In this document: positions 25,428 through 40,633 of the stretch, in pieces
Layout: each line of letters begins with the position of its first letter
How positions within the stretch are numbered: the first letter of the stretch is position 1
From: Actinomucor elegans
Lineage: Eukaryota; Mucoromycota; Mucoromycetes; Mucorales; Mucoraceae
Assembly: GCA_026027325.1 (NCBI GenBank)
Contig: JAMSLZ010000002.1
Coordinates: forward strand, 1,860,001-1,924,000
Reading direction: 5' to 3'
DNA length: 64,000 nucleotides
Made by a program: the position numbers and the translations under genes
Notes under the pieces: model-generated
Told to the model about the DNA's origin: nothing
Database searches by the model: none
What the model saw: the letters and a program-made list of their open reading frames with translations, nothing else

Positions 25428-27368
25428 TTAAGCTTTCTTACTAACAGGAGTTTTTCCATTGAGATAGCGTAATAAAAAGTACACAGATAGAGCAATGATA
25501 AGAATGATTCGACTCCAATACCTATAAACAAATCAGTTAGTTCAAATGAACCGAAATAGATATAAAAAGAGCTTACCAATAGTCAACGAATACGATTGAA
25601 GGTAAGGGCTGAGCCATAATTTGATAAGAATGGGAGATAACACGTGCAGAAGAATGAGAGCCAGTTTCGTTTCTTCCAAAAGATGAAGGAGAAGCTACTG
25701 CAAGGCATAAAAACAATGCCATAAAAGTCTTGCTGTTACCGTTGTTAGCACTACTGCTATCTTCACTCTGTTCTGAAGAACTGGAATTGTTTTGTGGTGA
25801 AGTTGCCATTGTTACATCAGTATTAGGCTTATCTTGCCCTTCAGTCTGCAGCTTTTTTGATCTTCGGCGGTAAGGTCTTCGCTCTTGCTTGGGCAGTAAC
25901 TCGGCCAATGCCGCACGTTGAGCAGCACGCTCGCGGAGTATGCGCTGACGTTCATTTCTCTCGCGTTCCATAGCTTCTTTTCGTTCGGCTGCCAAGCGCT
26001 GCTGTTCAGCTTGCTGGTAGTCGCACTTTTGAACTTGGAAACGTGCTAATACTTTGGCACCACCAGGCATCTGAGCCAGAATTTGCTGAAGCACTTGGTT
26101 TTCTCGTTCAGCTAATTCGTTCGTGTGCTTAAGATGATGAATATACTCTGTCGCTTTATGAAGAATGGTAGCCTTGTTGAGCTTCTTGGCTACAGGGACA
26201 CCATCCACGATTTCACTATCACCATTATTATCTTCATGTTCGTCTTCAGAGGTATCGTCTTCCTCGTTGCCGCTGCCGCTTTTGTTTTTCTTTTCTCTGA
26301 CCTTGGCTTTGTAAAGAGCAGGAACAACATTTTTAAGATCACTGATACGATCATTGATGTTGTTACGGTAGCGACGTTCAATGGCATTATGGGCTACTTT
26401 CTTTAATTGACGGCCTGCTTCTATGGGTGAGCGAGCGGCAGTTCGAGCAGCTACAGCCGCCATTGCATTTGCTACGAGATTTGTAGTATGACTGGTGGTG
26501 GAATCGCTACGGTTGGTCTTTCTCCAATGTCGAGTTTCATGATAATCTTCGTTAGAATAGTCGGGAATAACTAATGAAAAAAAAAATGAGCGGAGATTTC
26601 ATTACGATGTCTGTAATTAGTCAAATTACCTTCGTCTTCATTACCCTTTCGCCATTGTTCAATAGCTACGAAAGGGTTGATAAGAGGAGCAGAACGTTCG
26701 GACATAGGTGATGCGTCAATTTGTTCGGGACTGGCAGCATTGGAAGTATTTGATCCAACAGAGTTATGTGATTGCGGTGTCTCGGGAAACATAACATCCG
26801 ACATTGGAGTGGGTAAGCCGGTTCTGTTAGTATTATTGGAACCAACTCCAACGCCATTACTTTCACTTGATAGCTGATAGTTCATATTTTGGGTATTATT
26901 TACCGTGTTTCTATTCTGATATCGATATTGCATTCCTTCTTCTTTGTTCACCATCGATGGACGGTGGTTTGAGCCAAACTGAGGGGTAATAGATACGTTA
27001 CAGATAGAGTTTGCTCGTGTAGCCCTTGATTGGAAGCAATCAGGTTGAGAAGAGGTGTTCTGCTGATTTGATAATTGAGAATTCATACTACTTGATTGTT
27101 CCTTGAAGCACCAGTTTAACATTTCGTATGGAGGTTGTTGTGATTGAGGATGAGGCTGGTGAGAAGGAACAAAATACTGTTGTGGTGGATTATGAGGAAC
27201 ATTTAGTTGCTGCGTAGGATGGATAGAATGTAAGGTGGGATCCTGATTTTGATTATAAATCATCTGCTGCTGCTGCTGCTGCTGCTGTTGTTGTTGTTGT
27301 TGAACAGAGTTTGATGTAACATCAAAGTAAGTGTCAAAATCCAGATCAGCGATCTCTTGTTGCATCAT
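25428..27368 (-). CDS. SREBP-type bHLH-zipper factor with a C-terminal membrane hairpin
   Basis: Three exons, 27368-26630, 26570-25577 and 25521-25428; 608 residues. Residues 1-280 are an acidic, Gln/Asn/Ser-rich activation region with a polyQ run. The bHLH starts at about 303: HNAIERRYRNNINDRI carries the tyrosine (Y314) diagnostic of SREBPs in place of the usual arginine. A long acidic loop is followed by helix 2 (NKATILHKATEYIHHL) and a zipper. Two hydrophobic segments, about 528-545 (FMALFLCLAVA) and 582-598 (IILIIALSVYFLL), flank a loop of about 35 residues with an NET glycosylation site, which is the SREBP hairpin layout. Only 10 residues follow the second span, so the SCAP-binding regulatory domain is missing, as in S. 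pombe Sre2. Sterol/oxygen control is inferred from the family. Confidence 0.88.
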
Positions 27369-31701: not shown

Positions 31702-34202
31702 TTAACCACTGCAACTAACACAGGCATCTGGATTTTCAAGCGAACAAGCTATGGCTGCGAGATCTTCAGTAGTTTTTTCAATTTCTTCTTCAATATCCTC
31801 CTTGGTTTCTTCCCCTATCGTCAAACGCATAGCTTCAAGAGGACTGGTCTTGAGAAATTGCATACCCGTCTTCAAACCCTTCTTCCATGAATAGAAATGC
31901 ATTGAAGAAAGTCGGCTATAGTTTGGTTCAGCAGAGAATAAGTTGAGAGATTGAGATTGATCAATAAAAGCTGCACGATCAACAGCTAAATCAATAAGAA
32001 CACGTTGCGATAACTCCCAAACAGTCTTGTAAAGCTTTTTGAGATCATCTGACAACAAAGAAAGCGTTTGGACACTACCATTGGCTTGGGCCAAGAGCTC
32101 CTTTACTTTGGGACTCCACATACCACGGTCAATCAAGTCCTTAAGTAAATGGGGATTGACAGCATGACATTCACCAGTGTTGGTGCGATGAGTAAAGATC
32201 ATACTATGATAAGGCTCTACACCATCATTATTACCAAGGAATTGACTGGTGGTAGTTGTAGGCATGGGCGCAATGAGAACAGAGTTACGAACACCATGGG
32301 TCTTGATGTTGGCGCGTAGAGTAGCCCAGTCAAGTCGGTCAGAAACTTGAACATTCCACATATCATGTTGCAGAATGCCTTGACTAATAGGAGAACCTTC
32401 GTAAGAGGGATAAGGACCAGATTTTTGAGCTAATTCATTCGAGGCCTCAAGAGAGGCAAAGTAAATGGTTTCAAAAATGTCCTTGTTGAGTTGACGGGCT
32501 TCGGGAGAATCAAATGCATGATGCATCATCAAAAAAACATCAGCCAAACCTTGAACACCCAAACCAAGAGCTCTGTGCTTCATAGCACTCATCTTGGCTT
32601 CCTCCATAACATAGTTATTGGCATCAATCATCTTGTCTAAGTTCTTGATAACAACCTTAGTGATATCTTGAAGTTTACTAAAGTCAAAAGTACGCGTTTT
32701 AATATCTACGCACTTGGGGAGAGCAATTGAAGCGATATTGGCAGAAGCGATCTCGTTTGCATCGGAATATTGCATAATATCAGCGTGAAGGTTGGAACCG
32801 GAGATAACGCCCAAATTCTTTTGGTTATTCTTTTCATTGATAGCGTCTTTGAAACACATAAAAGGCATACCACTTTCAATTTGAGCATCCAGAATAGAGA
32901 ACCAAAGATTTTGAGCAGAGACGGTCTTTCTGGCTTTACCCATCTTTTCGTAATTAAGATACTTCTCTTCAAACTCTTTGCCATAACAAATATCGAGACC
33001 TGGACATTCATTAGGACACATCAAGGACCATTCACCGTTTTCTTCGACGCGCTTCATGAAGATATCGGGAATCCAAAGACCTAAAAGCAAATGACGTGCA
33101 CGAAGATTTTCTTCGCCATTGTTTTTTGACAAGTCAATAAACTCAAAGATATCAGCATGCCAGGGTTCAAGATAAACAGCGTAAGTGCCCTTGACCTTTC
33201 TAGCACCGGGAGTGATGAAACGCGCAGCGTCGTTGAAGACCTTCAACATAGGAATGATACCGTTTGAAGTACCATTCGTGCCAGCAATATAAGAACCAGA
33301 AGCACGAATCTTTTGGAAACTCATACCAACAGAGCCTGAAGCTTTAGAGATACGAGCACAAGTAGCAACAGTGTCGTAGATACCTTCGATACTATCTTCT
33401 TTCATTTGAACCTCAAAGAAGCTTGAAAGTTGGCCATTATTAGTACCAGCATTCAAAAGAGTAGTACCGGCATGAGTAAAGAGTTGACGAGAAGTATAAT
33501 CATAGACAGCAAAAGCAGAATCCAAATCTTCACCGTGAATTCCAAGAGCAACACGCATCATCATATGCTGAGGACGTTCAACTACCTTATCACCGATCTT
33601 TAACAGGTAACTTTGTTCCAAAGTCTTGAAACCAAAGTAATTAAAGTCAAAGTCGCGTTGGTAGTCGATGGTAGCATTGATTTTGTCAGCGTGCTTTAAG
33701 ACCAATTCCAAAAAGTCTTTGCTAACAAGAGGATTAGGAGCGCCAGTTTTGGGATGAACATTATTATAGAGTTCTTGAATGACATCCGAGAAATTGTCAT
33801 GAGTTTCCTTCTGGAGATTAGAGACTGAAATACGAGCAGCCAAAACTGCATAGTCAGGATGAATACCGGTCATATCAACAGCAATCTCAGCAGCTAAGTT
33901 ATCCAACTGGACTGTAGTGATGCCAGGATACATGCCAGATACGACCTGAGGAGGTAGTTGGTTAGTAAATGAGAAACTTGATTTATTATGTGTTATTAGT
34001 GTACCTTTTGAGAAATCTTGGGTGGATCGACAAAGTCTTTATTAAGACCTTCACATAAGATACTGATACGAGAACTAATCTTGTCAAAGAAGACCTTTTC
34101 TTGAGTACCGTCTAAAGAAAAGCCATTAGAATTAACAAAGTGTGTTACGCTACACGCATTTTAGACAAATATATCTACTTTACCTCTCTTTACAACGTAC
34201 AT
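31702..34202 (-). CDS. Ribonucleotide reductase large-subunit homologue lacking the catalytic residues
   Basis: Three exons (minus): 34202-34184, 34111-34005 and 33945-31702; 789 residues (human RRM1 792). The short first exon gives MYVVKRDG, the start of the ATP cone. Alignment to class I large subunits is continuous (HPDYAVLAARISVSNL, FNYFGFKTLE, RPQHMMMRVALGIH, GSYIAGTNGTSNG, YLEPWHADIFEFIDL, MCPNECPGLD, GVQGLADVF). The chemistry is gone: human numbering Cys218 is Phe (QLSSFFEV), Cys429 is His and Glu431 is Asp (SNLHADI), Cys444 is Ala (IASANIAS), and the radical-transfer Tyr737-Tyr738 pair is Gln-Phe (GMQFLKT). Only Asn427 stays. Loop 2 (GGNKRPG in man) reads GARKVKG. The C-terminal redox pair is kept (CVSC). 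There is no stop or frameshift, so it looks selected as a pseudoenzyme, perhaps an allosteric partner of an active subunit encoded elsewhere. Confidence 0.9.
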
Positions 34203-34280: not shown

Positions 34281-34366
34281 AAAACCGCGTCTTGAAACAC
34301 GTCTTTTCTTGCTGCGCTGAAAAACGCGACAAGAAAGTTGTGCGCCCGCGTTGAACAAATACGCGT
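34281..34366. promoter_or_regulatory. MCB-like cluster upstream of the RNR homologue
   Basis: A full ACGCGT lies at 34361-34366, about 160 bp upstream of the start codon at 34202. Partial matches CCGCGT (near 34283) and ACGCGA (34324-34329), plus a CCGCGTT near 34347, lie between. In ascomycete yeasts MBF binds ACGCGT to induce RNR1 at G1/S, so this promoter layout fits an S-phase gene. Based on motif match only. Confidence 0.5.
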
Positions 34367-36364: not shown

Positions 36365-37429
36365 ATGTGCTTTCCTACGCTAACGTCATTGGGCTCGCTA
36401 TTTTTGCTATTTGCCTTCATTTTGGAGCTATTTATTATGATATCCAATTTATCTGTTAAGCCGCTCTTAACCCAAATCCCTTTTGTGGAGGCGTGGAACG
36501 ACGATCAAAACCTACTTTATACGTTTGGGTTATGGTAAGTGCTTTTAAAAAGCATGAAGCAATAATATATAACAAACAAACATAGGAATTATTGTACTGG
36601 ATCTTCAACTGGAGGTATTCAGAACTGTGGTAGACATACTCCCGCCTATAATTGGGCTCAAACTCCCACTATCAGCAATTTCGCTTCGGGTCAATCCAAT
36701 AGTTGGATGGTTAAAGGCCTTTTTTTGGGTATGTTCATTCTGTTCTTCATAGCGGTAGGTTTTAGCTTTATTCTCTGGTGCATGAGTCTTCCTATCTGCT
36801 GCTTAAAACGTCGAGGATGGGGCATCTCCATGTCAACATTGTCCTTTATCAACTTTTTGATTATGCTTGCAGGTTTAGTTCTTTTACTGGTTGTGACTTT
36901 GTCTGGTATCAAGGTTCTTACAAATGCTGATAACACATGGAATGCCCATGCAGGCAATGGTCTTTGGATCACCATTGGTGCTACCGTTTCCTTGTTTCTC
37001 GCTTTCCTCTGTTATTCTGGAGGCACCTCTTTCGCTCCTAAGAGGCGTGCTAAAGTCGCAGATAGTTCTGCCGAAACTGGTACCGCTGGATGTTGTGGAC
37101 GAAGAAGAAAGAACAGGGCAAAAGTAGATCCTAACTACAAGAGTGATTATAATGCCAACAATGATAATAATGTCATTCCTGGTACTACACAGCCTTTGTA
37201 CGCTGATTCTCCTGCCTTCCAATCTACGCAACAACAACAACAACAGCCTCAGACAAGCATGTTGCAACAGCCTTATATGATGTCTCCTGCGCCGGGTAAT
37301 CAACATGCTCCAGGTATGACAGGTGCAGCTCATAACACTTATGATCCTAACGTCAATACGGGAACTGGAGATGTTGGTGGTCGTGGTTATCAAACTCCAG
37401 TACTTCAACCTGCCAACCCCACTCACTAA
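36365..37429 (+). CDS. Sur7/PalI-family four-span membrane protein
   Basis: Two exons, 36365-36534 and 36586-37429 (TG|G junction, Trp); 337 residues. TM1 is at about 5-29 (LFLLFAFILELFIMI). An extracellular loop follows with the claudin-like W-N-Y-C motif (NYCTGSSTGG, then QNC), which appears only after splicing. TM2 (LFLGMFILFFIAVGFSFIL), TM3 (FINFLIMLAGLVLLLVVTL) and TM4 (WITIGATVSLFLAFLCYSG) come next. The cytosolic tail has a CCGRRRKNR cluster and a Gln-rich, disordered end. Sur7/PalI proteins sit in plasma-membrane domains (eisosomes) or act in pH/cell-wall signalling; which role applies here cannot be told. The downstream ATG at 36707 lies inside TM2 and is not the start. Confidence 0.82.
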
Positions 37430-38810: not shown

Positions 38811-40633
38811 TTAAGTGGGACAATAAGGAGCCAAATGTTCACCTGCGGCTTGAGGATGAATGAAGGAATCGATAGAAACATAAAGAGTGTAAATCATGAT
38901 TCCAACACCGAAAATGATCAACAAGACATTTAACACTTTATCAAAGGTTTTCTTGCAAATCTTGTAATGGAACATACCGGGGAAAATGAAGCACAAAGGC
39001 ACACAGGCAACTGAGCCAACCAAAGCTACAAATTTGTCAAGATTTTCACCACCAATACCGTAAGCAATAGCAGCACAAAGAACACACAAGATGGTTCTAT
39101 AAACATTCTTGGACCACTTGATACAAATACTATCTCTACCAGATCTGAACTTGCGGAAGAGGCCATTTTCAATAATCTTCAGGGCAGGGAAAAGCATCAA
39201 TGGAGCAGTTAAACAAATGGCCAAAGAGTATAGTAACTGAACAGTGATTGTGAGTCTGTTCGCAGGAGGAAAGTTGTATATTACAGCAGATTGAACAGTG
39301 TCACCATATGCCAAGTAAGAAATGGTGCCAATCAGAATGTAAATGATACAGACAATAATCATGCCCAAGGTAAGAACAAAAGGAAATTTGTCAGGACGTT
39401 CCATGGATTCAACGATAGGAATAACTTTAAGATAGATAGAGTTAATATATGTGCGTTAGATGAAATAATCAATGTACTTACTCAACCCAATACCTTCAAA
39501 AGAGAAGGTAGCAGTACCAATCATAAGAGCAAAGTTGGCAGGATTCACAGCTGCAATATTAGGACCAACGCCATTCGTGTTTAGTGAATCAGCAGTAAAG
39601 TAGATGATACAGACCAAACCAAATAGAATAAAGACGTCAGCAATGATAGCAGTGAAAGACAATTTAGCAATATGTCTAACTAGAGCAAGAGGAATCAAGA
39701 TGGCGAGAGGCATCCATATATAATACTTTTGTTCAATGCCTGCAGTACAGTTGGATAGAACATCTACCACGCTCACCAAGTTACCAGAAATGAAAATGAA
39801 ATAGGAACATACGAAGCCAATCTGCGAAATGACAATAAAAAATAATACAGTGAAGCGAAGAGGTTGGCCGAATAATATACCACCTATATCACCATAAGAA
39901 CCACCAACCACAAGTTGAGTATCAACCAATCTTTTGAAAGCAAACAGACAAATAGCACCAATAACAATCATCAAGACAATGGATAGCGCTAAACCGCCAT
40001 TTTGGAACCTATCAAATTAATGGTATTAGTTTCAATGGCACCAATAAGCTTTAAGAAAAAAAAAACATACGCTTTAGGCAAAAATAGAACACCAGAGCCA
40101 ATGAAAGCCTTCAAGAACATAAACATGGCTTTTCCAACTGAAGATTTGGGGATATTATCCTCAGCTTCTTCAATCATTTCATCGCCTATTGTAGATTCTT
40201 CATGTTTTCGGAGAGAAGACTGATAGCTTTTTCTCTTTTCCTCACTAGCCACGGGCCCAAGATTAGACTTGGAGTGATGATAAGGTCCGTCATCCAGTCT
40301 TTCGCCCGCGAAATTACTGTACACAGAAAAAGATGAAATGGTTCTAGCAATGGATCTTCTCTTAGCAGCTGAAGGTGCAAATGAAGATACACGACTCCCC
40401 AGTTTGGGTCGAGGAGTAGGACGAATGTTACCAGTAGAATTGACTCTGTCATTGTAGTTGGGACGAGAGATATGATTTGGCATTGTATCTGGGGCAAAAT
40501 GGGCACGACTCACCGGTCGACTAGCAGTACCACGATCAGTGTCTGGCCTTTTCCTTGGAACATCATAGGATTTACTACGAATCTTAGAGAGATCAGCGGT
40601 GCCTCTGACACCGTTATTATCATTAGTTGACAT
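38811..40633 (-). CDS. Vacuolar-type amino acid transporter (AAAP/AVT family)
   Basis: Three exons, 40633-40071, 40008-39482 and 39424-38811; 567 residues, start ATG at 40631-40633. A hydrophilic Ser/Arg-rich N-terminus of about 170 residues precedes the first span, as in Avt3/Avt4. The family signature at the first membrane segment is split by intron 1: KAFIGSGVLFLPKA, then FQNGGLALS. Further hallmarks are TATFSFEGIGL with IPIVESMERP across intron 2, and SYLAYGDTVQSAVIYNFP. About 11 membrane segments are visible. AVT proteins move neutral amino acids across the vacuolar membrane by proton exchange; direction and substrate are not shown by the sequence. A TATA-like run (TATATATATATA) lies about 80 bp upstream of the ATG. 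Confidence 0.87.

Follow-up and report, generated by a model that had tools for sequence, protein, structure and literature searches.

Yeast Rnr4 is an inactive small subunit of ribonucleotide reductase (RNR), and the tail cysteines of the yeast large subunit Rnr1 reportedly serve the active site of the neighboring subunit in trans, as Zhang et al. are said to have found in 2007. The dead large subunits described so far are, to our knowledge, all viral; the other dead subunits described are small ones. A search of an open-access library yielded no example of a dead large subunit from a cell; most subscription journals lay outside its scope, and one may be in print. For betaherpesviruses, passages of two published accounts describe inactive homologs of the large subunit (R1), namely HCMV UL45, MCMV M45, and that of HHV-6B (PMC5469499, PMC11772975). 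Yeast Rnr3 is a second large subunit that, according to an excerpt of one study, is weakly active and can work in mixed complexes with Rnr1 (PMC5673236). In Neurospora, the RNR large subunit UN-24 is described in part of another as having a second role, in nonself recognition, that needs its C-terminus (PMC3618301). In human RNR, the effector is located at the dimer interface, where it contacts loop 1 of the neighboring subunit, and Asp57 is the residue that discriminates between ATP and dATP (sections of PMC5819950).

Here, we describe a large-subunit gene, referred to as D, in a window of 64,000 nucleotides from the fungus Actinomucor elegans, together with its orthologs, which we refer to as the "dead clade" (14 aligned rows including D). 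Like human RRM1 and yeast Rnr1, D is full-length and has the same domains, predicted fold, loop 1, ATP-cone residues, and tail CxxC; by contrast, Cys218, Glu431, and Tyr737 are missing throughout the dead clade, loop 2 is recast, and the pocket is drifting. Compared by description only, D resembles the betaherpesvirus proteins in being, as far as its residues indicate, a large-subunit homolog without reductase activity, but it is cellular and fungal and stands beside three active paralogs. As with yeast Rnr4, a pseudo-subunit is retained beside an active paralog; however, Rnr4 is a small subunit and D a large one, and all three small subunits here retain their ligand motifs. Like Rnr3, D is a second large subunit, and the mixed complexes known for Rnr3 with Rnr1 are proposed here for D, although Rnr3 is weakly active whereas the catalytic residues of D are gone. 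Like UN-24, for which a second role is known, D is a fungal RNR large subunit; the two differ in that UN-24 is the RNR large subunit proper and needs its C-terminus for the second role, while the tail of D is of ordinary length.

Gene D and the RNR genes of its genome

The initial annotation described an intact RNR large subunit with replaced catalytic residues, which our analysis confirms. The coordinates were right; D is encoded by the minus strand (34202-31702) of a 3.7 Mb contig. The product does have 789 aa, as annotated, but it is not read from one stop-free frame: two introns of 72 and 59 nt, both GT..AG, leave three exons. Exon 1 (34184..34202) encodes the start of the ATP cone, MYVVKR; exon 2 (34005..34111) continues the cone, with Asp16 and Arg21 kept; and exon 3 (31702..33945) encodes residues 43-789, i.e., the remaining cone, the all-alpha domain, the barrel, and the tail. 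The first intron is at the same position as the first intron of paralogs A, B, and C. Residues 1-788 align to human RRM1 (3hnc) in a HMMER alignment, and the predicted fold agrees with that of human RRM1 with a TM score of 0.90. Pfam domains PF03477, PF00317, and PF02867 all score above cut-off in the ortholog P0004, as do PF00317 and PF02867 in P0001, which is the exon-3 protein of the window gene. The length and Pfam domains of D are thus those of an ordinary large subunit, with no added domain, and by descent and predicted fold the protein qualifies as a class I RNR large subunit.

Replacements were read from HMMER (3hnc) and MAFFT alignments and are numbered according to human RRM1. All of those annotated initially are present: Phe218 for the redox Cys218 (33418..33420), His429 for the thiyl-radical Cys429 (32785..32787), Asp431 for the catalytic Glu431 (32779..32781), Ala444 for the redox Cys444 (32740..32742), and Gln738-Phe739 for the radical-path Tyr737-Tyr738 (31855..31860), all on the minus strand. 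Others had been missed. In loop 2 (residues 286-295; 33187..33216, minus strand), the substrate-reading residues are gone, with Gln288 replaced by Pro and Arg293 by Val; elsewhere, Ser202 is Gly, and Ala605 and Ser606 are both Thr. The statement that every catalytic residue is replaced holds for the residues that were named but is too strong, because Asn427, Ser217, Thr604, Thr607, and both tail cysteines remain. Among the features expected of an active enzyme, D lacks Cys218, Cys429, Cys444, Glu431, the Tyr737-Tyr738 pair, and Gln288 with Arg293, and has only the tail CxxC. These catalytic, redox, and radical-path losses support the earlier proposal that the protein would be incapable of thiyl-radical nucleotide reduction.

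The initial annotation suggested looking for a canonical RNR1 in the same genome, and three were found. The assembly searched (36.5 Mb, 27 contigs) has four large-subunit genes, with A and B on contig 1, C on contig 12, and D in the window. A, B, and C all keep Cys218, Cys429, Cys444, Glu431, Gln288, Arg293, and both tyrosines. There are also three small-subunit genes, each with a C-terminal peptide of the usual type and with the ligand motifs. With three canonical large and three small subunits, ordinary RNR activity need not depend on D. A dead small-subunit partner, similar to yeast Rnr4, was sought and not found, since 3/3 small subunits retain the ligand motifs. D is not a retrocopy of C, from which it differs at 0.59 of four-fold sites, because it has retained introns, one of them at a position found in A and missing from C. 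As a separate observation, A and B group together as a second ancient lineage among the large subunits of Mucorales, and B (L007) is canonical yet fast-evolving, with an end branch of 0.32 in a quick tree and 0.30 in a careful tree.

The promoter of D has a cluster of ACGCG/CGCGT sites (34286..34366, no strand assigned), 88-164 nt upstream of the ATG. In yeast, such MCB-like sites direct S-phase expression. The cluster has four distinct sites, one of which is the palindrome ACGCGT, or five matches if both halves are counted. Within 400 nt upstream, D, A, and B have five matches each when the palindrome is counted as two, corresponding to four, three, and four distinct sites, respectively, while C has two; only 7 of the 1272 overlapping bins of the window reach five matches, and these include the bins over D's own promoter. 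Two of the three small-subunit genes have no such site in the 400 nt upstream, and the third, judged by eye, has two nearby. As a hint about the expression of D, these sites are suggestive only. Among the neighboring frames searched for domains, none is a nucleotide-metabolism gene; matches were to a helix-loop-helix domain (25576-26598, minus strand), the SUR7/PalI family (36566-37426, plus strand), and an amino-acid transporter (38814-39455, minus strand).

Loss and retention across the dead clade

Protein collections were searched twice, with D and with its Choanephora ortholog as queries, each search returning the best 120 of 8000 scored candidates. The search with D identified at least 15 proteins besides the window's own (P0002-P0016) that share D's losses. 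Among the matches listed, the orthologs come from at least 10 named species in 7 Mucorales genera (Mucor lusitanicus, M. mucedo, Mycotypha africana, Benjaminiella poitrasii, Cokeromyces recurvatus, Rhizopus microsporus, R. arrhizus, R. stolonifer, Choanephora cucurbitarum, and Gilbertella persicaria) and are 70-95% identical to the window protein, the closest named one being that of Mucor lusitanicus (88%). The Choanephora search added 44 new proteins among the 120 listed, none of which (0/44) is without the catalytic set. Across the 164 database proteins listed, the four A. elegans genes, and the human protein, this set, checked as eight positions, is missing only in D and P0001-P0016; P0060 is merely gapped at 429. 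After one near copy and one gapped model were dropped, 14 distinct dead rows including D remained. The same losses across these 14 rows rule out chance and assembly or sequencing error, and they contradict both of the refutations that the initial annotation had envisaged, a sequencing error and a recent pseudogene.

Seven of the records (P0001, P0002, P0003, P0006, P0008, P0009, and P0010) are 743 aa long, start with MYPGITT, inside exon 3, and are without the first 46 ATP-cone residues; probably, their first exons were missed. Where these seven are named, they are called reductase alpha subunits, and D's orthologs carry reductase names in public annotation.

The dead rows form one group, with support of 100 in the quick tree, built from 63 rows including 14 dead ones, and of 100/100 in the careful tree, built from 35 rows including 11 dead ones. 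The stem of this group is long (0.52 and 0.63 changes per site in the quick and careful trees, respectively), and it branches inside the eukaryotic large subunits, among those of Mucorales and Umbelopsis. These placements show, for the sequences sampled, that the dead clade arose within Mucorales or near kin. In the quick tree, its sister is the canonical C type (support 90). The careful tree leaves the sister unsettled; a topology holding the dead clade and the C type together is not rejected (AU p = 0.294).

Cys218, Gln288, Arg293, Glu431, and Tyr737 are missing in 14/14 dead rows, Cys429 in 13/14, and Cys444 in 11/14, and Tyr738 is Phe in 9/14. Position 288 is Pro and position 293 is Val or Ile in all 14 rows. 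The replacements themselves vary: position 429 is occupied by five different residues, 431 by three, 444 by four, and 606 by seven. Conversely, Asp57 (33901..33903), the effector contact Asp226 (33394..33396), and the C-terminal CVSC of the electron-relay tail (31711..31722; Cys784 and Cys787 in D) are kept in 14/14 rows, and loop 1 (residues 255-271; 33259..33309), which contacts the effector phosphates, is identical in all of them; each of these features lies on the minus strand. Lys243, Arg256, Asp16, and Arg21 are likewise unchanged in every dead row that covers them. For the first 46 residues of the cone, coverage drops to 6 of the 14 dead rows (6 to 8 for positions up to 46), and Lys5 is Asn in one of the rows that cover the cone start.

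A canonical set of 104 rows has 307 usable positions that are at least 98% conserved, of which 116 are changed in at least one dead row. With residue roles taken from a cryo-EM study of the human enzyme (parts of PMC5819950), and that of Arg21 from part of a review (PMC3267527), the conserved positions involved in substrate binding, catalysis, loop 2, or the radical path are changed in 15/18 cases, and those of the effector site, loop 1, ATP cone, oligomer contacts, or tail cysteines in 0/19. The associated Fisher p value of 9e-8 is only a guide, because the rows are related, the classes were fixed after a first look at the columns, and the first 46 residues rest on 6-8 rows. As read from these alignments, loss in the dead clade is selective.

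The rate of change is also uneven. In six species that have both genes (15 pairs), divergence of the dead gene exceeds that of the C type by a mean ratio of 2.28 (range 1.39-2.86). The ratio is 11.9 in residues 416-450, 14.9 in 736-751, 8.3 in 613-640, which include the hairpin next to the cone, and unbounded in 600-612, where the C type is unchanged; in loop 1 it is 0, since the 14 dead rows are identical there and the C type varies. For the shared part of the cone the ratio is 3.4, compared with the gene mean of 2.3, which the last 20 residues taken together roughly match (2.25). At 24 positions, the dead rows are invariant and 15 C-type rows are invariant for another residue; one of these, T19S, is based on 6 dead rows. 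At positions 47 and 49, which lie at or close to the hexamer interface, the dead clade has fixed residues that differ from those of the C type. Dead-clade loop 2 reads ITPG(A/S)(R/K)K(V/I)K, followed by Gly in 13/14 rows. Two further cysteines are invariant in the dead clade: Cys406 (32854..32856, minus strand), which is present in 2/148 canonical rows, and Cys454 (32710..32712, minus strand), present in 0/148. The newly fixed positions, the two cysteines, and the recast loop 2 indicate more than decay, and the orthologs show, at the level of their genes, that the dead clade has been retained as a full-length protein. The identity among orthologs and the 24 clade-specific positions bear out the earlier view that the gene is under selection. 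As a whole, then, the initial interpretation is partly supported: the inability to reduce nucleotides, the selection, and the canonical RNR1 stand, and the replacement of every catalytic residue does not.

Possible roles of a non-catalytic large subunit

Since the chemistry is lost and the nucleotide-sensing parts are kept, D probably steers a working enzyme rather than making product. Two of the parts kept, loop 1 and the tail, are ones that serve a neighbor in known enzymes, and the parts gone are those needed for a chain's own chemistry, so D looks like a chain working for a partner. The reading that we consider best, with a probability of roughly 55%, is that D, as a non-catalytic alpha chain (alpha'), associates with an active alpha and in trans either assists or tunes it. 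In such a complex, alpha' would combine with one of the three catalytic alpha chains, in dimers (alpha.alpha') or in hexamers of mixed composition. There, loop 1 of alpha' would build an effector site that is read by loop 2 of the active partner, its cone would add ATP/dATP sensing, and its tail would re-reduce the partner's active site, while its own loop 2 would no longer read any substrate. Overall, dNTP synthesis would be tuned or held back. The role of allosteric partner suggested in the initial annotation would agree with what the alignments show to be lost and kept. Cross-talk between unlike large subunits in yeast, described in part of PMC5673236, is a precedent for mixed complexes, and the promoter cluster of D resembles those of A and B. 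Also in favor are the fold predicted for D and the presence of canonical large and small subunits in the genome. Against mixed subunits are the fast evolution of the cone (3.4) and the hairpin (8.3), the different residues fixed at positions 47 and 49, the divergence of loop 2, the thin coverage of the cone start with Lys5 replaced in one row, the average rate of the last 20 residues, and the uneven promoter support, with two sites for C and none for two small-subunit genes.

One would also expect intact effector sites if alpha' formed homodimers that had a different function. It is possible, albeit at clearly lower odds, that alpha' is a separate nucleotide sensor or scaffold that self-dimerizes, binds dNTP/ATP, and works on non-RNR partners. 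The divergent cone and hairpin, the 24 clade-specific fixed positions, the recast loop 2, and the two invariant new cysteines would all suit such a protein, and both inactive betaherpesvirus R1 and Neurospora UN-24 provide precedents, as far as the cited passages go (PMC5469499, PMC11772975, PMC3618301). However, D has no extra domain, its length and Pfam domains being those of an ordinary large subunit, and it keeps electron-relay cysteines that have no evident use outside RNR.

A more specific form of the partner reading is doubtful: an asymmetric alpha.alpha' core in which the dead chain would give the effector loop, cone, and relay tail in trans, with Cys406 and Cys454 as an added redox switch. 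If true, one chain would sense and the other would catalyze.

A decoy function is unlikely. Here, alpha' would bind the small subunit, withhold it from active alpha, and so restrain dNTP synthesis. The predicted fold is kept, the genome has three small subunits that end in the usual type of peptide, and the radical path is cut in 14/14 rows, all of which a decoy would accommodate; nevertheless, the identical loop 1 and the kept tail cysteines are left unexplained. More improbable still is an enzyme whose old pocket houses a new chemistry: Cys454 and Cys406 are invariant in the dead clade and absent or almost absent from canonical rows, but the pocket drifts, with multiple residues at 429, 431, 444, and 606, meaning that no alternative catalytic set is conserved there. 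Lastly, a decaying pseudogene or sequencing error would match the 2.28-fold faster evolution of D relative to the C type in the same species, but it can be set aside given the same losses in at least 10 named species, the 24 newly fixed positions, and the 70-95% identity of orthologs even though four-fold sites are saturated even between paralogs.

Because the orthologs are named as reductases, any tally of active RNR1 genes from Mucor and Rhizopus that relies on names includes a non-enzyme. D itself would represent a cellular case of a dead large subunit. With its chemistry lost and its sensing kept, it would amount to a natural separation-of-function experiment on RNR, one that makes it testable which parts of alpha act on the neighboring subunit.
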